Positions 1 through 63,316 of a stretch of DNA of 64,000 nucleotides are shown one piece after another (positions within the stretch are counted from its first letter, which is position 1; each line of letters starts with the position of its first letter). Both the position numbers and the translations under genes were made by a program. Location of the stretch: NCBI GenBank assembly GCA_036872755.1, contig JAVHNS010000016.1, positions 558,001 through 622,000 on the forward strand, read 5' to 3'. Source of the DNA: Orbilia blumenaviensis (Eukaryota; Ascomycota; Orbiliomycetes; Orbiliales; Orbiliaceae). Below the pieces are notes generated by a model. The model did no database searches and was not told the DNA's origin. It saw nothing but the letters and a program-made list of their open reading frames with translations.

Positions 1-3000
1 TTCGCAACCATGTTGAGAGCATCATGGCTCGATTCCGTAACCCTCGTCCAAAGGACAGCAACCCAATTCTCCTTCCTGTCAAGGCTGTCACCTCCCCTCG
101 TGAGACTATCGAAGTTCAACCCTACCTCGTTCTGTGCCCGACCGATGTTGTTACCGTCTTCCACGCCCTCTTCCCTCAAGCCTCCCAGAGACCAGTTACT
201 TCCTCATCTGAGAAAGACTTCGGCTCTAAGAAGTTTGGTCGGTCAATTAATGCCGGTCGCCCAGCTGTCTCCCGTCCTCCTAGCATCTTTGAAACAACCA
301 ATGCCTCGTTTAAGAGTAGCTCTTCAATCACTAGCGACAGCGGGCTCTCTAGCATGAATGCTCCGTTACTTGAGAATCAATATGGCAGCATGGACGAGAA
401 GTACGCCGGTTCCCTCGTTGGCTCTCCAAATTCGTTTACCATTGCTCCAAACATCAAATCTTCACAAGCATCTATCTACTCGATCCAATCTATCACATCG
501 GAGCCAGATGACGAGCTCGAAGTATTCATGATGGATGTCAAAGTGGCAATTACCGAAATGACTCGCAAACTCGGCGCAGAGGCAACATCTGGAAGGACGC
601 ACCCATGCGCTGAGAAGTGGGCTGTCGTATTTGTCTCTGCTGATGGCAAGACTGTGTCTGCTCGCATGAAGACTGATTGGGAGGACGACGATGAGGACGA
701 CAGCGACAGCAGCAGCGACAACGATAGCGACGATGACGCCCCAGGCGAAGTATCCAGGGACTATAACCAAGTCAAACAAGCTATCATGAAGTTGATTGAG
801 GAGTACGAAGTGCCGGAAGAACTGATCGAAGAAGATGAGAATCAGTCCAAGAAGTTTAGTAACAGAACATCAGTTGCGACTAACCGAAAGCACGCCGCTC
901 CGGTCGCTTCCGCTGTTAATAGCTACTTGATTCAAGATCAAAACCCGTACTACCAAGCCACTGGTGGTGGCTTGAGCGCCCTCTTTGGTAGCCCAGAGCG
1001 AGAACGTCAGCGACTTGACCTCCCGCGGGATAGCAGTGACCGCCTTCGCCAAGCTGGAAAAGAGGGCAATGCTGATGTCCTCTTGACCATGTTGTCCGCC
1101 GCCCAATCTCAATGTATGGCTCGTGGGGCCTACGTTGACGGTCAGATCTTTCATCGCGCGGTTACCATTCTCCTCCGCAAGTTGGAACCCTCCCTCACTC
1201 GCAATGGGTTTGCACCTCTTCTTCACATTCTCTCTCGCAGCTCTCGTCTTTCTATCGAGAAGTCTGCCGGATGCATCGAACATCTTGAGGCTTGGTTTGT
1301 GTGGTTGACTATGGCGCAAGAAAGACACGACTCTGCGACCACTGACATGCTTGCTCTTGTCAAGGCACTTCGCGTTAAGATGTGGTATGTTACTGATGTC
1401 CGCAACTCCGCCGCCTACGATGATGCTCGCAACGTTGCTATGGCGCTGAAGAAGATGGCTATTCCACCCAAGACAAAGGATGGTCGTCCTATTCCTCAAC
1501 AGCGTGTCAAAACTGGCCTCACGCATCGAATGTCGACTAGCAGCTTCTCTCTTCTCAAGGGGGACAGCTTGATTGATACCCTGGCCGCTCCAGTTGACAA
1601 TGGTGGTCCAAACAAGCTTAGCGACGAGCAGGCTGAGATTACGAGTGCCTGGTTGAAGCGCTACGCTGTCACAAACTTTTGCACTGGAGAGGAAAGGATT
1701 CATCGTTTCTGCTGCGAGATTGACAAGTGCGTCAACAAACTCGTTGGCAAGGAAATTCTTACTGGCCCCGTCCTCTGGTCCAGCGAGTTGTTCGCAAGAG
1801 ACGAGAGGGAACTTGCTAATGTTAGGAAAAAGGGAGAGTTCCATCTTGCTGGTGTTGGTGGGTTGAATATGACTATGGATGATGTTGATGCCGATAGCGA
1901 AAAGGCCAACAAGCTTAGACCAAAGGCGAGCGCAAGCGATCTCTTCGGTTTGGGCATTGGTCGTCCAAGGTCTCAAAGCATCGTCAGCACCTTGTCTGCC
2001 CTGTCAACTACACCTAACAATCGCCCACGAACGACTCGAGGCAGTGCTTCCGAGTCATACATGGATAAGAATGATCTATTCAATAGTCCAACTCCTCAAC
2101 TTTCTATGGAATCCACTCCAACATCTGCTTTCTGGAGTCCTTTCGGAGGCGTGACACCATTGGCAGGATCTCCTTCCCGCAGCAAGGCTAACCCTGCCCT
2201 CCCAACCTTAAGCACATCCAGGTCTATGGAAGGTGAAAATCAGGAGAAGAAAGCTTTCCTCTCCTCTCTCAAGATCGCACTTATCGGCCTGCTTCTAAGC
2301 GACCTGGGCCTTGACGTTTGGAGCCAAGGTAGTGAGACCGACGCTTGGTTCTCGGGTGGTCTTGCCGATGAGTGTATGCAGCGTCGCGAAGATCAGGAAC
2401 GCGCCCTCCAAGAACGAAGTGCATCCTCAAAGAGCCTAAACACAGTTGCTTCCAAGAAGTTGCTGAACCGCAAAAAGAGCAACAAGAGCATGAGAAGGTC
2501 CGTTTCTCATGCTAATGGTATTCTGGAGGCTCTTCAAGAGAAAGGTCAGTTGGCTGCTCCGGTAGCTACGTACGAGACTGTTGGACACGAGCCCCATTCG
2601 GGTGAGGATAATTCCTCCAGCAGCGATGCCACTGCGCGATCCACAACCACTGCTACCGGGCCCTCTTCTAGTAACAAGAAAGGCTCCTACCAAAACTTCC
2701 CATATGCTGCCGCTTTCCGCCGCCTCCTCACGAAATTTTCCACTCACCCCAATCCTTTCGACAAGCTCAATGCTCTCTACGAACTTGAGATTCTGATCGT
2801 TGCTTCTCTCACGACAACCACTGGCAAGACCTTTACCCGCCGTGGAACCTTCCCTACCACTCCCTCCCCGGACTTTGAACCTGTTGCTCGTGAATTGAGC
2901 GCGCGTATGAGCAACCTCATTACTCAACCCTCTAATCTCGACGAAAGCCTTGCGCATGCGGATGAACGCCGTCACGCTGGCCTCTCGGGCTCTCCATTCA

Positions 3001-3692
3001 TGACTCCAACTGGCTCCCGTACTCCAGTCGGAAGTAACCTCCCTTCAACGGAGATAATCATCGAGGTTTGGCAGGAACTCTTCCGCCAGGCTGATATTCG
3101 CCCGCGAACACTCTTCCGCGATCTTCAATTCGTCGCTTCCTTCATCCCTGCCTACCAACTTGATCTCACTAGCCAAGGCAAGGCATTTTGGGACATGGCT
3201 AATGCAGCCCTCCGCCTAAAGGTTGACGTTGTCAAGACCATGGTAGAGGTAGCGGACGAGATTGTCGGTTACCATACCAAGAGACGCACCCCAGAGTCTG
3301 CTGCCGCTCAGCCTGCTGTCTCCAAGGAGAAGTTCGACAAGAACCCGGAGCTTAAGGCCAAGTCTCCACAGCCACAAGGCGCTGAGTGGATTGCCCGCTA
3401 CTCCATGAAGGATGCCGCTAACATGTGGTTGATCACTGCTAAGGAAGGAGATGCGACTGCTCAACGTGAGCTTGCTATCTTTTATCTTACTAATCCGGCA
3501 CTATTGCCATTGGCTACTATGCCGATGAGCAAGACCAAGGATATCTTCCGCAATGACTCAATGGTCACCCGAGGAGTTGATCCCGAGAAGTGCGACCCAT
3601 TGAGGCTGTGTGTTTCCCACCACTGGATGGAGTTATCGTCTCGCGAAGATGAGCTGGCGAAGAAGTACCTGAGGCAGCGAGAAGAGTGGTAA
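1..3692 (+). CDS. Large conserved fungal protein of unknown function (5' end probably outside window)
   Basis: A continuous frame runs from the window edge to a TAA at 3690-3692. The first ATG in frame is at 24, giving 1222 aa, but the frame is open upstream of it to base 3, so the true N terminus may lie outside the window. Visible features: a Ser-rich N-terminal third, a strongly acidic Asp/Ser stretch near residues 220-240, and long low-complexity Ser/Thr linkers around 640-730 and 870-920. The C-terminal segment (about 1125-1165) has an Ala/Leu pattern like a Sel1 repeat (motif AKEGDATAQRELAIFYL). No catalytic motif is visible. Its size and the mix of conserved-looking blocks with linkers suggest a scaffold or regulatory protein; that is inference. 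I do not recognise the family with certainty. No intron is needed. The antisense frame at 870-1976 is a shadow. Confidence 0.8.
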   Translation, partial: RNHVESIMARFRNPRPKDSNPILLPVKAVTSPRETIEVQPYLVLCPTDVVTVFHALFPQASQRPVTSSSEKDFGSKKFGRSINAGRPAVSRPPSIFETTNASFKSSSSITSDSGLSSMNAPLLENQYGSMDEKYAGSLVGSPNSFTIAPNIKSSQASIYSIQSITSEPDDELEVFMMDVKVAITEMTRKLGAEATSGRTHPCAEKWAVVFVSADGKTVSARMKTDWEDDDEDDSDSSSDNDSDDDAPGEVSRDYNQVKQAIMKLIEEYEVPEELIEEDENQSKKFSNRTSVATNRKHAAPVASAVNSYLIQDQNPYYQATGGGLSALFGSPERERQRLDLPRDSSDRLRQAGKEGNADVLLTMLSAAQSQCMARGAYVDGQIFHRAVTILLRKLEPSLTRNGFAPLLHILSRSSRLSIEKSAGCIEHLEAWFVWLTMAQERHDSATTDMLALVKALRVKMWYVTDVRNSAAYDDARNVAMALKKMAIPPKTKDGRPIPQQRVKTGLTHRMSTSSFSLLKGDSLIDTLAAPVDNGGPNKLSDEQAEITSAWLKRYAVTNFCTGEERIHRFCCEIDKCVNKLVGKEILTGPVLWSSELFARDERELANVRKKGEFHLAGVGGLNMTMDDVDADSEKANKLRPKASASDLFGLGIGRPRSQSIVSTLSALSTTPNNRPRTTRGSASESYMDKNDLFNSPTPQLSMESTPTSAFWSPFGGVTPLAGSPSRSKANPALPTLSTSRSMEGENQEKKAFLSSLKIALIGLLLSDLGLDVWSQGSETDAWFSGGLADECMQRREDQERALQERSASSKSLNTVASKKLLNRKKSNKSMRRSVSHANGILEALQEKGQLAAPVATYETVGHEPHSGEDNSSSSDATARSTTTATGPSSSNKKGSYQNFPYAAAFRRLLTKFSTHPNPFDKLNALYELEILIVASLTTTTGKTFTRRGTFPTTPSPDFEPVARELSARMSNLITQPSNLDESLAHADERRHAGLSGSPFMTPTGSRTPVGSNLPSTEIIIEVWQELFRQADIRPRTLFRDLQFVASFIPAYQLDLTSQGKAFWDMANAALRLKVDVVKTMVEVADEIVGYHTKRRTPESAAAQPAVSKEKFDKNPELKAKSPQPQGAEWIARYSMKDAANMWLITAKEGDATAQRELAIFYLTNPALLPLATMPMSKTKDIFRNDSMVTRGVDPEKCDPLRLCVSHHWMELSSREDELAKKYLRQREEW

Positions 3693-21236: not shown

Positions 21237-22154
21237 CTATAACCTTGATCCAGTACTGACAACCGTATCTCTTCTTCTCCCATCTAATATAAAACTCACT
21301 ACAGGGTCTCCAGTCCAGATACTCTGACTTCCTTCATCTATACCTGTTCCGGCAATTCCATTAACCTCGTACCCATTATCAAAACTCCTTCCTTGTAGTG
21401 CTGCAAGACGTGCCAATACTCTTCTCCTTCTCCTTCTATTTCGAACCTTGTGTACTGTTATAGTCGTAATACATATAGCCGCTGATATCCCCCCAATAGT
21501 GCCACCAATTATGGTCGCTGCATTTTTTTGTTGGTTAGGAAAGGGTAATATCGTTTCTGTATTTGCTGGGGTGTTTGTTGTATCAACGGAGGTGGCTGAG
21601 AGCTTACTAGTCCCGGCACTGTTCGTGAATGTTGGGTTTGAGATAGTGCCACTCGACGATGTTAGATCGGGCAGAGATTGCGAAGTTGATGATTGCAGCA
21701 CATCTGAGTTCGGCCCAGTGTTTTGTATAGTTGATGCGGTGCCCTGCTCCCCTCCCCCAGTCACCCCTATAGTTATACCGGCTGTCGCAAGTGTTGGTGA
21801 AAATGTTGAAGCTATCCCAGAGTTCAAATTTGAACAAATAAACTGCTCAAAGAATGAGTTATCCCCATTTCCTCCTCCTCCTCGAGTTCCGCCACCAAAC
21901 CCTCCAAACCCGCTGGTACAGTTCGCATTGATACAATTGTTGAGAAGCTGAAGGTTGGTTGAGTTGTTGCAGTAGCATGGAAAATTCCCTGTCTCGCAGC
22001 CGGTTTCTAGGCTGAGAGATGACATGCAACTGAAAGTACAACGAGGCATGTTACCTGGCTGTGGTTTAGATGCGCATAGTGTCGTAAGAAAGACGGCCGT
22101 ATAAATGATAGTTTTTAGTGATATGACATCAGGAAGCGGTTTTGGGATTCCCAT
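21237..22154 (-). CDS. CFEM-domain surface protein with C-terminal transmembrane helix
   Basis: Single exon, 305 aa from the ATG at 22154; the frame extends to 22211 only by a TTG codon. A leader (VISLKTIIYTAVFLTTLCA) is followed by a CFEM domain with eight Cys at about residues 39, 43, 53, 60, 62, 74, 79 and 107, including the CYC pair. A Gly-rich loop sits inside the domain. Then comes a Ser/Thr-rich stalk, one transmembrane helix (about 217-242) with Gly-zipper character, and a run of seven Arg in an eight-residue block, a strong stop-transfer. CFEM proteins are fungal-specific, cell-surface, and include heme/iron-binding and virulence-related members. Most are GPI-anchored; the integral-membrane form with a cytosolic tail is a known variant and could signal. 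The specific role is unknown. Confidence 0.85.
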   Translation of the reverse strand: MGIPKPLPDVISLKTIIYTAVFLTTLCASKPQPGNMPRCTFSCMSSLSLETGCETGNFPCYCNNSTNLQLLNNCINANCTSGFGGFGGGTRGGGGNGDNSFFEQFICSNLNSGIASTFSPTLATAGITIGVTGGGEQGTASTIQNTGPNSDVLQSSTSQSLPDLTSSSGTISNPTFTNSAGTSKLSATSVDTTNTPANTETILPFPNQQKNAATIIGGTIGGISAAICITTITVHKVRNRRRRRRVLARLAALQGRSFDNGYEVNGIAGTGIDEGSQSIWTGDPVVSFILDGRRRDTVVSTGSRL

Positions 22155-23755
22155 GTTTGTGGAGGGCCAGATCCTTGATTTCCCTCGAGCTTCAGAGCGA
22201 AGGACCCACAAATTTAAAAGACCCCGACTTCGAATTTCTAGCCCCTGCTGCGTACCTTATAGCCTGTGAGCTCGTGTTTGTAGATTTATTATGTCAAAGT
22301 CACCCCGCGGGCAACGGAAGCTCTCAAAAGCGCGTCGATTGTGATGCCTATAGCAGTCGAATATGATTGACTAACATCTTAGAAGCAATGGAATTTCCCA
22401 ACACTATATAACTCTCCAGGCTACAGCTAGTGAGTTTAGTGGGACTGTTTTCTCCAATCTGCTTGCTAGGTACGAGCAGCTAGGTATTTATTTTCATAAA
22501 TTCAATACCATAAACGCATTAAACGTAACACGCACCCTAATGCCTTGTCATTGACCTCAAGATATGCAAGAAAATCATTTAAAAATTTATATGAGCTATT
22601 CGCATATATAGAGTTCTATGGCTGCCACATATATAGTATGTGCGCATCCGATGATCGTCGTTCTCCTAGGATCCTGTTTGTGTAACATGATCATATGCAT
22701 AAGTATAAGTATTGCAATGCAATGGTTTGCAACAGAAACTGAATAATCATCGCGGGTGCGCGTAACAGTTGATGTTAATACTATCGGCCGATAAACATAT
22801 TGAGTTATTACTACTCAGTAAGTATAACTAATGACAATTGAAAAAGTGTATTATTTCAAAATGAGAGGGTTTCTTTTTGGATATGTATACTCGTGTTGGT
22901 GTGTCTCATTGCATGCAATATTGGGCTCAGGTATGCGAAGCAAAGATCCATATTGCAGCACATATACCAAAATGAAGTATTAAATCCTAAGTTCAGGTCA
23001 CACGAACTCTCTGACATTGTACCTACCTATAACTATCCCTGAACTCGAGGGGCACCATGTAGCTAAACATCCCCGGTTCAAATGGTGAGGCATTTGTATT
23101 GGTTTCACAAACGCAAAGTTTGTAGCCTGATGACGATATAGTATTTAAAAGAGCACAAAGCTCAGAAGTTTATCGAAATTTTTGAATAACCGCCCTCTCG
23201 GCAGATCACGACCAGGATTTTTGGTGGCAGTTGGTGCCGAACAGATGGAAACTCAGTTGAACAAATTTGACTTTCTGAATAGTTGAGCAAGTCCCGCTGG
23301 TAGAAAAGGAGGCGGAGCAAAATTTTATAGTGAGAACATTGCAATTACAGACCTCTGCACTGCTCTAGATCCATGGAAGTTTCGAAGGTTAAGTCTGTGT
23401 TACATGAGCATCACAATTCCACAGTAGATGCCGTGACAATAAAGCTTAAATTACATCATCGAAACCATATCGATATCGCAGGGAAAGCATATGGACGATT
23501 GAATCAAAGTTAATCCAAGTTCCGAAGTCCCCAAGGTTCACTTGAGAGTCCTACCGGAATTAGTTCTTCTACTTTCAACAAAGTACTAAACTAATAACGC
23601 TTGACGACGTTTGAATTCGTATCCAAGAAGATTCGTTGAAATCGTAAACGTTTACACTTAAGAAGCCAAACCTCGCTACCAAGTTATTTTAGCTTGGAGA
23701 CGTCCCCAGCATAATTGCGCCGCAAATGTGCCTGATTTCTCAGTAAAACATAAAC
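22155..23755. other. Intergenic region, no gene recognised
   Basis: About 1.6 kb, AT-rich, between two minus-strand surface-protein genes. Only short frames. It should hold the CFEM gene promoter (left side) and the 3' UTR of the GPI protein gene (right side). Confidence 0.5.
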
Positions 23756-56805: not shown

Positions 56806-57216
56806 AAAAGTATTTTTTGAGGTGGAAGGGATAAGGGGGCAAAATTTGCAAAAAGTTGAGAGGAGAAAAATTAAAAAGTGGATAACATTCACCAAGCGGC
56901 CGCTAAGTTCTACAACCAGCCGACATCGTCCCAAGGGTGGAGCGCCGTGTCTTATCCGAGAGTCAACCAAATCGATTTCCGAATTTCCGTGTGAGCGAAT
57001 ACGACAATTGCCATGCACAATGCTATAATTGCCTATCTTACTAGTAGTGTCTTAATTTCTATTTTAATTTTCAAATATCGGACGCTGTTGGCATAGTAAA
57101 AGAAATGGCAACACAGTTTCACGTTTACTAAATTGCAATTGAGATTGTCCAATGAATATTGGCATTGTGCTACATTCGAGTTCGTCTACGTCGAAATGCC
57201 AATGCTTGTCTGATTG

Positions 57217-57225
57217 ATCAGATAA
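57217..57225 (+). promoter_or_regulatory. Iron-GATA-factor consensus site upstream of NIS synthetase
   Basis: ATCAGATAA is an exact match to ATCWGATAA, the site of fungal iron-responsive GATA repressors (SreA/Sre1/Urbs1/Fep1 family). It is followed by an overlapping GATAAGATA word. It lies about 680 bases before the ATG at 57902. Motif seen; function inferred. Confidence 0.45.
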
Positions 57226-57901
57226 GATATAATGTTGCACAACGTCACACAACATGTACCATGGTCACAGAGTTGATAACACTCCAACACAAAATGAATA
57301 TGTTGATTCAACGTGCCGACACGATGCAAAGGATGGTCTGGCTATTGGATCCGACTGTCTTTGGAATAGCGAGTTACCGGAGCGGACCTACCCCATTTCC
57401 CGCAGTGGTTCAAGCTTAGCTCCGGGTGGGCCGTCACTAGTTCACGACCCCTCACATTCCATCCCACTTTGGAACAAAACCACAATGACGCTAAACCGTG
57501 GCCGTCTTGGTGCATATAACTGGCTAAGTATTTTGTTAGGTAAGTGGGGGCTAGCAGTTGCAGATTTTACCTCGTTGGAATGGTGGAGTCGCAATCGACA
57601 ATCGGTACCCCTCGTTCCTCCGCCCCTCGGTACGAAAATTTATATTCTCCGATGCCTGCACTTATGAGCGATTTCAGTTTCCAAGAGCTTGGAATATTTA
57701 ACTTGCATCTACAGACTTGTGGATTTACATATGTGAATTTGACAATATATTTAACGGCTTCAAAATTCTAGAGTCTCGTCTCGTTCTAGAGTCAAGGTAT
57801 GCATTCCACCCGCCGTCTTAATTTTCAATCACGCGCATTCAGTTTTGCAGAAAAATCTAATACGGTTCAAAATTCAAAGTAAAAGAGCTTTAGTCGCCAT
57901 A

Positions 57902-60900
57902 ATGGCGCCGGTTTGTAACTCAATTGGTGAGGAAGGGACCAACATACATACGCCAACACTCTCTGCAAAGCACTCCATATTAGAGCGACTTGTGCGGGCT
58001 TTGATTGCAGAAAAGCTTGTAGATGAATCACAGTTCGCCAAAGCTGGAATATCTTTATTGGTGCGGACAAGCCTATGCGGAAGGGTAACAGTTTCGCACC
58101 CAATCTATGCAAAACTTGGGAGCCCCGCCGATCCAAAAAAAATTCTTGACCCTCTTGAGCTATTGGATGAACTCGAGAGGGCTGGTATATTGCGCAACGA
58201 CGCTGGCTGGATTCTCGCACGAAACGAAATTAAAAACAGTCTAGATAGCTTAACCCAAGCTCTTAACGCCGAAAGAGTCCGCTCAGAAGCCCTTCGCTCC
58301 CGTTTCCAACAGCGATTTAACAATCGAGCTCCGTTTTCGTCTCTTGTCACAGCTTTGGCAGAGAGTGGCTATGGGAGACATGCGTTGGCGGGCTTTGAGC
58401 AACTCGTAGTGGATGGCCACCCACTTACGCCAGCCGGAAAGGTACGGACTGGAATGTCCTCCGCTGATGCAGCTCGGTACGGGCCAGAGTTTGGCTCCAA
58501 ATTTGGCCTCCGATTCGTCGCGGTCGCAAAAGATTCTGTTGAAGCTGAAGATGGAACGTGCAGCGGAATTTCAAAAATCTCAAGAGTTGATCCAGTTCAA
58601 AGTACTGGGATCGATGCCTTTAATCGAACCCTTAACGGGTTTTATAGGGACCGTGTCGAAACCTTACGGCAGGAACTTACTCAGATGGGGAAACGGCCAG
58701 ACGACTTCGTGATGATCCCCGTTCATCCACATCAGCTTGACAATGCGATCCCTAAGCTACACGCCGAGGCACTTTCCCGAAAGACAATAATCCCATTGCA
58801 AAGTTCTCTCACTGCACACCCATTAATGTCTTACAGGACCTTCTCGGTCAAAGGGGATGCCAACAAAGGATTACACATAAAAACTGCTTTGGAGGTTCAA
58901 CTGACCGGTGCCATACGAGGTATTTCGTCCGCATCTGCCCGAAACGCCCCTCGGATGTCCCGTTTACTGGCTCGAATTATTTCCGGTGACACGGACCTTC
59001 AACGAACGGATTTTGCTGGCCGTGAGCTCTTCGTACCTGAGCGTGCCCTGGCTGCCGTTGCGTTTAAAGAAAGCAAACGGAGCCTGGCAGCGATCTTAAG
59101 GGATGACATAGAAAATGATATGGGGGAGGACGAAGTTGCCTTGCCAGTAGCATCGCTGTTTGCCCGGTCTCCCCTAACCGGCAACCCCATTCTTAGCGAT
59201 TTGATTGCGGAGCTGGGTACTACTCCTTCGTCCTGGCTTCGCGCATTGGCTGAAGTGTCTATCCCCCCATGTCTTATATTCCTATCACGTTATGGTGTTT
59301 CTTTGGAACCCCATCCTCAGAATACCGTGATAATTCTTCGGAAGGGGTGGCCAAGTCGTATGCACATCAGGGATTTTGGTGGTGCTCGTATTTTACCTTC
59401 TCGCCTGGCGAAGCATGGGCTTTCAATCGAGTTGGATGCCGCGACTGGTCTCGTCATTAATTCTTCTTCGGAGGACGAAGGCGCTGCTATCCTTCGTGCT
59501 AAATTGTTCTACCCACTATTCGGAAACAATCTCGCAGAAGTTATTTCCACCTTGGCAAAGGATGACCAATCTGTCGAGGGAGATCTGTGGGGGGTTGTAC
59601 GGGGTGTCGTCCGTCAAACGGGAATGTATCTGGGTACCAAGGAGGCTTTTGAAGATATCAGTGATCTGCTTGAGAATCCATGGCGCAGGAAGTGTCTGCT
59701 CTCAATGCGTCTCGCAGGCGCTGTTACTGACCAGCGCTACGTCGACGGCCCAAACCCGCTTCGAATACCCCCCACGGGCACGATTAGCCCCTCGGCGTTC
59801 TGGAACAATGCAGAACAGACTATGTTCGAATATCTTTCCGCAAACGAACCGGAAATTTGTGCGCTGTGGCAAGCCCAGCTGGCTCAAGCTCGCCAGTCAA
59901 TAGAAGATGATTATCAAGCTTCATTGGCCCGCGAAGGCATCCAAGATAGCGCCGACACTATCCGGGGAGTTAAAGCTGAATGGGGACAGCTAAAACTTGA
60001 GCTAGAGGATTCGGCAACAAACCTTGCGCTTTCCAGGGTTCTAGTGCAACGGCGTGGGCAACAGCTCTGCGAACGGGCTCGGGCTGCCGGTTACGACTTA
60101 CTTTCGGTTCTCCTAGACCTATATGCCCCTAGCGATATTACAGTAGAGCTTGACGACTTCGACGCCGAGGGTCACCCGACTCATCCTTGCCGGAGAACGA
60201 GACTGCGGTTTTCGCCAGCAGATTCGCTAGCATTCGCCCCGGATTCCGGAAATATAGTATCCGGAAGAATCGTCGCAGTGCGGCGTGAAGAGTTAGTCCT
60301 ATCAAACCCAACCTTCTCAAGTCTGCTGCGAGAGCACTACCCATATATCAATGATGCTGCGTCGGCAAGCCTACGTCGTAGTGGAAAGAACCCAGAAGAC
60401 TTCGAGTTGGTCCTCGTACACCCTTTCCAATTTGCAACCGTACTCCCACAAATATATAAGTCCGAGCTTAGCTCTGGTATGATAGTGCCTATCCCCGAAG
60501 TCACGGTCGCCTGTCGTGCAACGTCGTCAACCCGAACTCTCGTATCTGCAACACCCGGAATTCAAGGGAGGCGACTCTCTTTCAAAACGGCGATTGATGT
60601 CCAGATCACATCAACCTGCCGCACAATTTCTCATGAGAGTGTCCGAAATGGGCCATATATCTCTAAATTACTCACCCGACTTCTTTCTGGCGAGCCCCGA
60701 GTATCATGTATTGCAGAGCGTGCAAGTGTTGCATTTTCGCCTAAATCTAGCTGTACGAATTCTCGTCAGCGAGGATTGTCGATGTTACTTAGGGACGACG
60801 TGGCTGACTACATCAAGCCTGGTGAAACTATTATCGGGTGTACTGCTTTGATAACGAAGTCTCCAATCAGCAGAAAGCCCTTTGTCGTGGAACTCGTTGA

Positions 60901-61513
60901 CAGCGTGGCTAAACACGGTGACAAGGAATTGGCTACTCGAGAGTTCATTGACAAATACGCCGATTTGCTTCTGTCTGCCGCACTTCCGCTTGTTTGGAAG
61001 CACGGTATCGCGCTCGAAGCCCATTTACAAAATACGCTCCTTGTGCTCGATTCTTCTCGAAAGCCGATTAGACTTCTTCTACGGGACTTCGCTGGCCTTC
61101 GTGTTAATCTTGATAGGCTCAAGAAAAGCGGTGAAGATATAACTAAGATCCCATGCCCACAATCGAGAACCATGTCTGCGGACGATGAAGAGATCAACGG
61201 CAAGTTCAGCCATTCTGTTCTTTTCACGAATCTAGCGCCAGTAGTTGACGCCCTGGCTGGAGTTGTTGCACCCTCCATCCTATGGAAAATCATTCGAGCG
61301 AGGGCTGCAGAAGTTTACGGAGCCTTTACTACCAAACTACCGAAGTCAGATAGCGCCACAGGAGATTTCGCGAAGGAGCATTTTGAACGGTTAACATCAA
61401 CTAAAGTGCTATCACAGAAGGCGCTTGTTACAATGAGGGTGTTGGCCAAAGCGTCAGGCGGCATGGATTACTACACAATGCAACCCAACCCTCTCTATTC
61501 GGGATCAGAGTGA
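57902..61513 (+). CDS. Bimodular NIS siderophore synthetase (tandem IucA/IucC)
   Basis: Single exon of 3.6 kb, 1203 aa from the ATG at 57902; the frame extends to 57845 only by a TTG codon. Two complete NRPS-independent siderophore synthetase modules, about 585 residues apart, are seen. Module 1: GHPLTPAGKVR at 172, VHPHQ near 274, SYRT near 310, HIKTALEVQLTG near 325, LEPHPQNTV near 468, IRDFGG near 489. Module 2: GHPTHPCRRTR near 757, VHPFQ near 839, STRT near 876, FKTAIDVQITS near 894, LEAHLQNTLL near 1038, LRDFAG near 1060. Such enzymes use ATP to adenylate a carboxylate (citrate, 2-oxoglutarate or similar) and condense it with an amine or alcohol in the cytosol. Usual members are single-module, about 600 aa. 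Module 1 lacks the second His of HPxHP and module 2 has Arg for the following Lys. No transporter or other pathway gene is adjacent. Product unknown; horizontal transfer from bacteria is possible but unproven. Confidence 0.93.
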   Translation: MAPVCNSIGEEGTNIHTPTLSAKHSILERLVRALIAEKLVDESQFAKAGISLLVRTSLCGRVTVSHPIYAKLGSPADPKKILDPLELLDELERAGILRNDAGWILARNEIKNSLDSLTQALNAERVRSEALRSRFQQRFNNRAPFSSLVTALAESGYGRHALAGFEQLVVDGHPLTPAGKVRTGMSSADAARYGPEFGSKFGLRFVAVAKDSVEAEDGTCSGISKISRVDPVQSTGIDAFNRTLNGFYRDRVETLRQELTQMGKRPDDFVMIPVHPHQLDNAIPKLHAEALSRKTIIPLQSSLTAHPLMSYRTFSVKGDANKGLHIKTALEVQLTGAIRGISSASARNAPRMSRLLARIISGDTDLQRTDFAGRELFVPERALAAVAFKESKRSLAAILRDDIENDMGEDEVALPVASLFARSPLTGNPILSDLIAELGTTPSSWLRALAEVSIPPCLIFLSRYGVSLEPHPQNTVIILRKGWPSRMHIRDFGGARILPSRLAKHGLSIELDAATGLVINSSSEDEGAAILRAKLFYPLFGNNLAEVISTLAKDDQSVEGDLWGVVRGVVRQTGMYLGTKEAFEDISDLLENPWRRKCLLSMRLAGAVTDQRYVDGPNPLRIPPTGTISPSAFWNNAEQTMFEYLSANEPEICALWQAQLAQARQSIEDDYQASLAREGIQDSADTIRGVKAEWGQLKLELEDSATNLALSRVLVQRRGQQLCERARAAGYDLLSVLLDLYAPSDITVELDDFDAEGHPTHPCRRTRLRFSPADSLAFAPDSGNIVSGRIVAVRREELVLSNPTFSSLLREHYPYINDAASASLRRSGKNPEDFELVLVHPFQFATVLPQIYKSELSSGMIVPIPEVTVACRATSSTRTLVSATPGIQGRRLSFKTAIDVQITSTCRTISHESVRNGPYISKLLTRLLSGEPRVSCIAERASVAFSPKSSCTNSRQRGLSMLLRDDVADYIKPGETIIGCTALITKSPISRKPFVVELVDSVAKHGDKELATREFIDKYADLLLSAALPLVWKHGIALEAHLQNTLLVLDSSRKPIRLLLRDFAGLRVNLDRLKKSGEDITKIPCPQSRTMSADDEEINGKFSHSVLFTNLAPVVDALAGVVAPSILWKIIRARAAEVYGAFTTKLPKSDSATGDFAKEHFERLTSTKVLSQKALVTMRVLAKASGGMDYYTMQPNPLYSGSE

Positions 61514-61948: not shown

Positions 61949-63316
61949 ATGGGATTTCTTGAACTAGGTAAACGCTCCAGGCCTCGTCGCCAAAAGGTGG
62001 TAGCTTCTGAACAACCAGCAACTATTTCGATGGCGTCCCAATCTCTTGATCTCACGCCTACCGCCAATTTTCGGACTACTCCTTTTGAGCGTCTTCCAGT
62101 GGAGTTGCTTCAGAGAATATTCTTGTTCTCGTACAATCCAGAATTGCCATTTACAAATCGATTTTTCCTTTCGATACTTTCTTCTCAATATCTTATACAA
62201 ACCTTTACATCCTCTGCTATTCTCGACGATGCACTCTCAAAGCAACGATATAGAACGGTTATGTCTAATATCCTTACCAGGAGGTTTTTGACTCTCCAAT
62301 TTCTCGAAAATCTGGAAGATACGTTATGGAACAAATATTTGAAGGCGGAATTCGGAGCTCATGTGCCAGCTACGGCTCAGGGGTACCGACTGGAAAGAGT
62401 GGAAGAAGACCGAACCATGGGGAATCTGGAATACACCTTTACTGAAGACATTGAAGGCCCAAGCGAGGCCGAAACTGAGAAGATTGGGGTTTACGTGCCT
62501 GTACTTGACTATAGGATGGTTCTGGGGAAGCTTGATTTGCGAACCGTTGCATTCCCACGGGACCGACTTCTCAATCCACCATTCACACTGGAAAAAATCA
62601 AATTAATCTCGGCGCTAGTTGCTAGGATTCCGTCTTTCTGGACCGACCTCATTGCTGGAGACGAAGGGAAATGGTGGGGTAGCAGGTTGCTGGAAATAGC
62701 GATTAGGAAGAGATGTGCAGCAATGGTAGACTTTCTAGCTAATTTCTGCTATGTGCGAGTTGAACCAATTCATCTAAGGGCCGCTGTCATACCTTGGGAC
62801 CATGGAGATACAGGGTGGTTGGAGCCTGAATTCTCTCGAGGGGGCAGCGGTCCTGTGGACCGAGGAGAAGACGTCGAAATGATGAAGTCACTACGGATTT
62901 TATATAAGAAGCCTGGTACAACGGAAGAGTCAAGCGTCTCTGGTATCGACGGCTTCATCAAGGGAATGAATGCTTGGAAGAAAGGAAAGGGCGGACTGGT
63001 GAAGTCTGGCTGGGGCTATCATGAAGACGAGATCGAAGATTCGCTGAGGGTTCTGTGGGTCCTAGATCAGGTTGTCGAAAGGAAGGGGAGATATCGGATT
63101 CACGGATCCACTGATTTCGCTAATGTCGACCATTTTGAGGAGGAGACAGCGCCTTGGATGCTAGGCGAAAATCGTTATTTCCCTACAGGCATCACGGAGT
63201 CCCCGTTGATGGCCGATGAAAAAGTATGGGAGGCTGCCAGACGAGAGAAGGGTGTCTACTGGAAGTGGCTGATGAAGGTAGGGACTCCTCCAGCCGGGTT
63301 CCTCGGAAGTTTATAG
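61949..63316 (+). CDS. F-box-like protein
   Basis: Single exon, 455 aa, ATG at 61949. A basic N-terminal stretch (KRSRPRRQK) comes first; another in-frame ATG lies 28 codons in. From about residue 44 an F-box-like motif is seen (FERLPVELLQRIFLFSYNPE). The typical continuation follows (LPFTNRFFLSILSSQYLI, in the place where F-box proteins have LPLTNRYFH-like text). The rest is helical with no recognised domain; a short loop repeats Trp and charged residues (KWWGSRLLEIAIRKR). Numerous F-box-like proteins of this layout occur in fungi; the target is unknown. Confidence 0.72.
   Translation: MGFLELGKRSRPRRQKVVASEQPATISMASQSLDLTPTANFRTTPFERLPVELLQRIFLFSYNPELPFTNRFFLSILSSQYLIQTFTSSAILDDALSKQRYRTVMSNILTRRFLTLQFLENLEDTLWNKYLKAEFGAHVPATAQGYRLERVEEDRTMGNLEYTFTEDIEGPSEAETEKIGVYVPVLDYRMVLGKLDLRTVAFPRDRLLNPPFTLEKIKLISALVARIPSFWTDLIAGDEGKWWGSRLLEIAIRKRCAAMVDFLANFCYVRVEPIHLRAAVIPWDHGDTGWLEPEFSRGGSGPVDRGEDVEMMKSLRILYKKPGTTEESSVSGIDGFIKGMNAWKKGKGGLVKSGWGYHEDEIEDSLRVLWVLDQVVERKGRYRIHGSTDFANVDHFEEETAPWMLGENRYFPTGITESPLMADEKVWEAARREKGVYWKWLMKVGTPPAGFLGSL

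Follow-up and report, generated by a model that had tools for sequence, protein, structure and literature searches.

Several siderophore systems independent of nonribosomal peptide synthetases (NRPS), hereafter NIS systems, have been described and are compared below with the gene analysed here. CiuE of Corynebacterium is a tandem NIS protein (PMC3326035, PMC7857480) required for the synthesis of corynebactin, in which two citrates are carried by lysine (PMC3326035). SfaD and SfaB, the synthetases of staphyloferrin A, are two distinct NIS enzymes that attach two citrates to a diamino acid lacking symmetry (PMC3326035). Among fungi, the NIS enzymes of Rhizopus (Rfs) and Armillaria harbour IucA_IucC and FhuF domains, have one module each and were placed with the Type A' enzymes (PMC10700112). 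Deletion of DhSip1, an NIS gene of Dactylellina haptotyla, removes the halo on chrome azurol S and impairs adhesive knobs, with rescue by iron (PMC13101506; 2026). Here we describe a gene in a 64,000-nucleotide stretch (hereafter the window) of Orbilia blumenaviensis, contig JAVHNS010000016.1, that encodes two complete NIS modules in one protein. This double synthetase of bacterial type is genuine and conserved among nematode-trapping fungi, hosts in which such an enzyme, although of a known kind, was not expected. We consider it probable that this gene, as a whole, represents a CiuE-type tandem synthetase of actinobacterial origin, which would make a dicitryl product on a diamino acid or diamine and form a second siderophore system under SreA-type repression.

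A conserved double NIS synthetase

The gene is an intronless open frame of 1203 codons, from the ATG at position 57902 to the end of the stop codon at 61513. An earlier note on this DNA, made from the sequence alone, had recognized two full sets of NIS motifs in it and proposed a profile search, which indeed returned two IucA_IucC domains (197 and 162 bits) starting 588 residues apart. Pfam also identified two FhuF domains, so that both modules have the layout of the NIS superfamily, IucA_IucC followed by an FhuF-like domain, and the predicted structure has the NIS fold. The adenylation-site motifs SxRT, KT, TxxxR, LExHxQN, RD and a late K are kept in both modules of all 11 fungal proteins discussed below. 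Some of their roles are given in PMC3323832, and motif spacing suggests that E469 in module 1 may correspond to E442 of AcsD described there. All 15 positions tested per module are invariant in the same 11 proteins, and conservation relative to protein P0002 is similar in module 1 (82.8%) and module 2 (80.0%). Dimers are common among NIS enzymes, so that one module might have lost catalysis and now act as a scaffold or stand in, as a fused copy, for a dimer partner. The invariant positions and the even conservation make this quite unlikely.

The first protein search, against 5.8 billion proteins, yielded 39 matches, namely the window protein, 10 named proteins from Arthrobotrys, Orbilia and Dactylellina, which we take to belong to the class Orbiliomycetes, one protein of the whitefly Bemisia tabaci and 27 others, bacterial where named. 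The best of these 27 are double proteins, including those of Embleya, Amycolatopsis and Kutzneria. All ten Orbiliomycetes homologues are 1190-1210 residues long (1199 in Dactylellina cionopaga), with 56-81% identity over 99-100% of the query. The start sites of the 11 fungal proteins roughly coincide, and six of these proteins, including that of the window, begin with MAPxC. No named NIS protein from another fungal group was found in three protein searches, which relied on shared exact words and from which distant homologues could escape. A family search of the whole 42.5-Mb genome identified no other NIS gene.

The absence of introns and the mostly bacterial nature of the non-fungal relatives might suggest an assembly artefact or bacterial contamination, but the probability of either is negligible. 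A frame error splitting the gene, envisaged in the earlier note, is excluded because the ten named homologues, at 56-81% identity, match end to end. Contamination is excluded by the location of the gene on a 1.2-Mb contig, flanked by fungal-type genes, and by its GC content at third codon positions (GC3) of 0.47, in the range of 12 neighbouring frames or frame parts (0.46-0.54).

Comparison with described and related systems

Like CiuE, the fungal protein harbours two IucA_IucC and FhuF regions in a single chain, and it is collinear with the CiuE relative of Corynebacterium silvaticum (32% identity). It differs in that it belongs to another branch of the tree than the Corynebacterium type, and in that a major facilitator superfamily (MFS) exporter adjoins the NIS gene in all three Corynebacterium loci examined, whereas the fungal gene stands alone. 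After the whitefly record, the closest relatives are fused proteins of Kutzneria, Amycolatopsis, Embleya and Kitasatospora, ~39-47% identical by segment, with the same module order, similar motifs and similar lengths (about 1170-1350 residues). To our knowledge, no product has been described for them. An exporter gene is adjacent in 4/4 Kutzneria and Amycolatopsis loci examined, which again sets them apart from the fungal gene. The architecture, presented as a novelty in the earlier note, was already known from CiuE, and both Actinomycetota and Bacillota have module pairs that are fused or adjacent.

The same note had correctly reported a T for H substitution in module 1 (T176 in GHPLTP) and an R for K substitution in module 2 (R765 in GHPTHPCRR), and had read them as clues to the roles of the modules. 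Both positions vary by lineage, and we therefore rejected them as role markers. In the GHPxHP motif of module 1, T is found in 11/11 fungal proteins, H in the four related actinobacterial genera, and H, Q or S among the non-fungal rows as a whole. The R of module 2 is common to the fungi and the Embleya, Kitasatospora, Amycolatopsis and Kutzneria rows.

Module order agrees with that of actinobacterial double proteins. Fungal module 1 is nearest to the N-terminal half in all 31 other double proteins, and module 2 to the C-terminal half in 30 of them, P0020 giving a tie. A 60-row tree unites the module 1 rows in one group (support of 97) and the module 2 rows in another (96); a stray long row, L079, fell within the former and a Micromonospora single enzyme, L061, within the latter. 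Per-module trees against bacterial synthetases, as the earlier note had suggested, thus place each module with bacterial modules of the same position, including those of three Corynebacterium relatives, albeit with only moderate support in a more careful 40-row tree (86/97 for module 1 and 77/84 for module 2). In the latter tree, both groups jointly form a clade (88/91, not starred) that excludes SfaB/SfaD as well as the single enzymes of Ralstonia and Legionella.

The fungal protein resembles the SfaD/SfaB system in having two different NIS units, which in Staphylococcus have a gene each, accompanied by a racemase gene in 4/4 loci examined. Approximately unbiased (AU) tests rejected the grouping of SfaB with module 1 (p-AU 0.008) or module 2 (0.013), but not that of SfaD with module 1 (0.063) or module 2 (0.069), although the module 2-SfaD grouping is not the best tree. 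We found no orthology of the fungal modules with SfaB and SfaD. Judging from the sequences, the module pair looks like the outcome of its own old duplication, separate in the best tree from that of SfaB/SfaD, and the roles of the latter enzymes cannot simply be carried over to the modules.

Rfs, a rhizoferrin synthetase, and the Armillaria enzyme are likewise fungal and harbour IucA_IucC and FhuF domains, but have one module rather than two. Proteins of this type did not appear in our three protein searches, and we distinguish them by module count and description. DhSip1 is, like the window gene, an NIS gene of a nematode-trapping fungus. Its reported length is 1055 residues, compared with 1190-1210 residues here; it was described as having 'a lucA/lucC domain' and was placed with a Cladobotryum protein (PMC13101506). 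By its description, DhSip1 is probably an orthologue with a short gene model, given the single NIS gene of the present genome and the 1199-residue form in D. cionopaga. The available parts of PMC13101506 mention neither two modules, nor a bacterial origin, nor a product. In a literature search whose coverage mostly excludes subscription journals, we found no paper joining Arthrobotrys with siderophore and IucA, or Arthrobotrys with NI-siderophore, and, among the papers listed, none whose title or opening of the abstract reports such a double NIS gene in nematode-trapping fungi or derives it from bacteria. The new elements of the present work are the proposed bacterial ancestry, the exporter-only context of the bacterial genes, the SreA-type promoter site and the whitefly and liverwort relatives.

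Proposed bacterial ancestry of the fungal gene

We considered 41 loci (L003-L043; L044-L082 were left aside) for module pairs, 34 of which provided one. From 71 pairs, 51 were included in a larger tree and 32 in a more careful tree and in AU tests, chosen to thin out near-copies and long rows; the groups for the AU tests were named after inspection of the trees. In the 51-row tree, the fungi belong to a 26-row group with Kutzneria, Amycolatopsis, Actinopolyspora, Embleya and Kitasatospora (support of 96), whose inner order is open. In the 32-row tree, the fused members of this group, including the fungal, whitefly and liverwort proteins, form a clade (98/94), in which the fungal protein is found among those of Embleya, Kitasatospora, Kutzneria and Amycolatopsis. 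The separate-gene Actinopolyspora pairs are outside of this clade, and the Corynebacterium-type proteins are beyond a 100/100 branch. An AU test rejected a group made up of fungi, whitefly and Actinopolyspora (p-AU 0.028).

Since module pairs occur across Actinomycetota and Bacillota, and the fungi are nested in the former, transfer from a bacterium to a fungus is the simplest reading of these trees. An ancestor of the nematode-trapping Orbiliomycetes would have acquired the synthetase, probably already fused, from an actinobacterium. The full-length frame common to ten other species and the fungal codon composition suggest that the transfer is old. This proposed bacterial ancestry is an addition of the present analysis. 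A closer donor was sought in 249 sampled genomes of the order of Kutzneria and was not found among them: 10 matched (E <= 1e-60), with segments 35-47% identical.

Predicted reaction and product

The genetic environments of the bacterial pairs provide hints regarding the pathway. Seven of the 34 loci have fused or nearly fused modules, two in one Kutzneria genome, two in Amycolatopsis and three in Corynebacterium; in one of the latter (C. otitidis, L033:7650-10938), the double gene is in two overlapping frames. This survey of fused loci covers these three genera. Blastp comparisons with probe proteins revealed an MFS exporter gene next to 7/7 fused loci and no decarboxylase or racemase gene in any of them within the stretch examined. 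Among the 27 separate-gene pairs, 21 have an ornithine/arginine decarboxylase-type gene, those without being five of Actinopolyspora and one of Acidimicrobiales. It thus appears that the fused type can do without additional biosynthetic genes, in agreement with a lone gene remaining functional after transfer. Separate pairs with an adjacent pyridoxal phosphate (PLP)-dependent decarboxylase gene (L014-L032, L035 and L043) were found in Halobacillus, Fictibacillus, a Bacillus and actinobacterial metagenome-assembled genomes; these pairs perhaps make decarboxylated dicitryl products.

By homology, each module would be an acyl-adenylating enzyme that uses ATP to activate a side carboxylate of one citrate, and capture of the citryl-adenylate by an amine would form an amide. 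The modules, as old paralogues kept paired, would probably each serve one of two unequal amines of the same substrate, most likely the diamino acid L-lysine or L-ornithine, or a diamine. The product would be a dicitryl carboxylate siderophore made from citrate, ATP and a central metabolite, and its synthesis would require no other biosynthetic gene. The earlier note had predicted a citrate-type product, which is indeed the likeliest outcome, but the bis-ester that it also entertained is unlikely, since the one characterized product linked to the CiuE-type family is a bis-amide.

A symmetric dicitryl-diamine, rhizoferrin, would result if both modules shared or repeated the same reaction on putrescine. 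The protein matches three NCBIfam models, all under their cut-offs, and the best of these is FslA (rhizoferrin). Two ornithine decarboxylase-family genes in the genome (L094 and L095) should make putrescine available, and rhizoferrin is a known fungal siderophore (PMC7857480). However, a single NIS enzyme is enough to make it (PMC7857480), yet here two diverged modules (27% identical) keep intact motifs, and the Ralstonia and Legionella single enzymes are outside of the paired-module clade. We thus regard rhizoferrin as unlikely. L094 and L095, in our judgement ordinary fungal ornithine decarboxylases, are only 24-29% identical to three NIS-linked bacterial decarboxylases, and co-transfer of a bacterial decarboxylase is unsupported.

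A mixed or different carboxylate siderophore, with another acyl donor or an amine such as spermidine or diaminobutyrate, appears to be about as improbable as rhizoferrin. Homology fixes no substrate, the other two NCBIfam matches are SbnF and SbnC, and AcsD takes several amines (PMC3323832), but dicitryl-lysine is the only characterized product found for the CiuE-type family (PMC3326035). A dicitryl product on a diamino acid or diamine therefore remains our preferred proposal.

Genetic surroundings, predicted regulation and a probable second siderophore system

The window contains one exact match to ATCWGATAA, the motif of SreA-type iron repressors (PMC2610380), located in the upstream region of the NIS gene (Table 1). 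A match is expected 1.37 times per window, and at least one occurred somewhere in 74 of 100 shuffled sequences. The region also contains four CCAAT boxes in 300 bp; 16 of 2548 sliding windows, with overlaps counted, reach this number. The gene would probably be repressed by an SreA-type GATA factor under iron-replete conditions. As a control, we used a stretch of contig C2 encoding a SidA-type oxygenase (281 bits to Lys_Orn_oxgnase) and reaching near an NRPS gene with four condensation domains. It harbours four exact SreA-type sites (L093:3962-4456), for 0.21 expected, and none of 200 shuffles reached four. The labels SidA and ferrichrome type are deduced from protein families, and desferriferrichrome has been reported for A. 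oligospora and A. musiformis (PMC7143726). The NIS gene may represent a second, citrate-type iron-collecting route beside this separate SidA/NRPS locus.

Among the 20 of 53 listed frames of the window that were scanned, we recognized no transporter and no fungal gene cluster around the NIS gene, although intron-split genes could escape. Tblastn searches of the window with three bacterial exporters, two decarboxylases and one racemase gave no exporter match, and only one 25-residue match to the racemase (E 0.043), taken as chance; the exporter and ABC importer neighbourhood of ciu-type loci was thus not found. Export of the product is presumed. A 455-residue frame (61949-63316, +) that adjoins the NIS gene has no Pfam match, and its N-terminal part is F-box-like by eye. 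Elsewhere, the window encodes a CFEM-domain protein (21240-22256, -), a type involved in iron or haem uptake in some fungi, and a 1229-residue frame without Pfam match (3-3692, +), open at the window start.

Table 1. Features of the double NIS synthetase gene and its upstream region (window positions)
Feature	Position	Strand	Basis or remark
Tandem NIS synthetase gene, 1203 aa, intronless	57902..61513	+	Frame, Pfam, 10 full-length named Orbiliomycetes homologues
Module 1, residues 1-625 (approximate boundary)	57902..59776	+	
Module 1 IucA_IucC domain	58388..59164	+	197 bits, Pfam
Module 1 FhuF-like C-terminal domain, residues 443-606	59228..59719	+	Pfam
Module 1 LEPHPQN, residues 468-474, putative general base E469	59303..59323	+	E/H/Q/N invariant in 11/11 fungal proteins
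Module 2, residues 626-1203	59777..61510	+	
Module 2 IucA_IucC domain	60152..60853	+	162 bits, Pfam
Module 2 LEAHLQN, residues 1038-1044, counterpart of module 1 LEPHPQN	61013..61033	+	Motif comparison
SreA-type site ATCAGATAA	57217..57225	+	Exact ATCWGATAA match, 677 bp upstream of ATG
CCAAT/ATTGG boxes (57149, 57158, 57199, 57344)	57149..57348	.	Possible CCAAT-complex sites, weak

A number of points weigh against the proposed origin and function. No exporter, importer or precursor gene was recognized near the NIS gene, and a single SreA-type site (~0.02 expected per kb) is weak evidence of regulation. Identities of about 31-47% between fungal and bacterial proteins make it risky to transfer substrates, and CiuE of C. 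diphtheriae is outside our trees, in which other Corynebacterium proteins stand in for it. Regarding origin, the nesting of the fungal protein among fused proteins comes from one 32-row tree, the 51-row tree leaves the position of the separate-gene Actinopolyspora pairs open, trees of single modules are weaker, and many rows deviate from the models in letter composition. A single eukaryotic clade was not rejected either (p-AU 0.363). Lastly, fused proteins are found on other branches of the 51-row tree (jgi20 beside Bacillota; mg18 and mg19), indicating that fusion or splitting happened more than once; fusion alone thus marks no donor.

Whitefly and liverwort relatives

The B. tabaci protein (P0012, 1021 residues), encoded on a 47.5-Mb contig, is 49% identical over 84% of the query and groups with the fungal clade in the 32-row tree (100/100). 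As annotated, it lacks about the first 184 residues of module 1, including the GHP motif; in SxRT of module 1, S is replaced by N, and in RDF of module 2, R is replaced by Q. A clade of Orbilia without Bemisia was not rejected (p-AU 0.126), and positions of the whitefly inside or beside the fungi are both compatible with the data. A search of the literature by title, with subscription journals mostly outside its coverage, found nothing on such a gene in whitefly. The third protein search (50 matches) identified a protein of the liverwort Calypogeia fissa (P0054, 1241 residues, 25-Mb contig), 39% identical to module 1, which in the 32-row tree is near Pseudonocardiaceae proteins at 85/87 only, and in whose module 1 a G replaces the glutamate of LExHxQN. 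We tentatively propose, as a possibility we hold to be rather less than even, that fused actinobacterial double synthetases entered eukaryotes more than once: into the fungal ancestor, from the fungal lineage or its donor into B. tabaci, and separately into C. fissa.

Implications

This analysis offers a testable bacterial source and chemistry for the NIS siderophores of nematode-trapping fungi. If DhSip1 is orthologous, the biological role of the gene, in trap formation, has already been published. A one-gene pathway whose only inputs are citrate, ATP and either an amine or an amino acid could easily be expressed and assayed, and would explain how a bacterial system could function in a fungus without its operon. 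With the whitefly and liverwort relatives, the transfer of siderophore synthesis across kingdoms can be checked directly. If repeated entry into eukaryotes proves true, a single self-sufficient gene would allow this complete carboxylate siderophore pathway to cross from one kingdom to another with unusual ease, and siderophore production might then take place, or have taken place in the past, in an insect and a plant.

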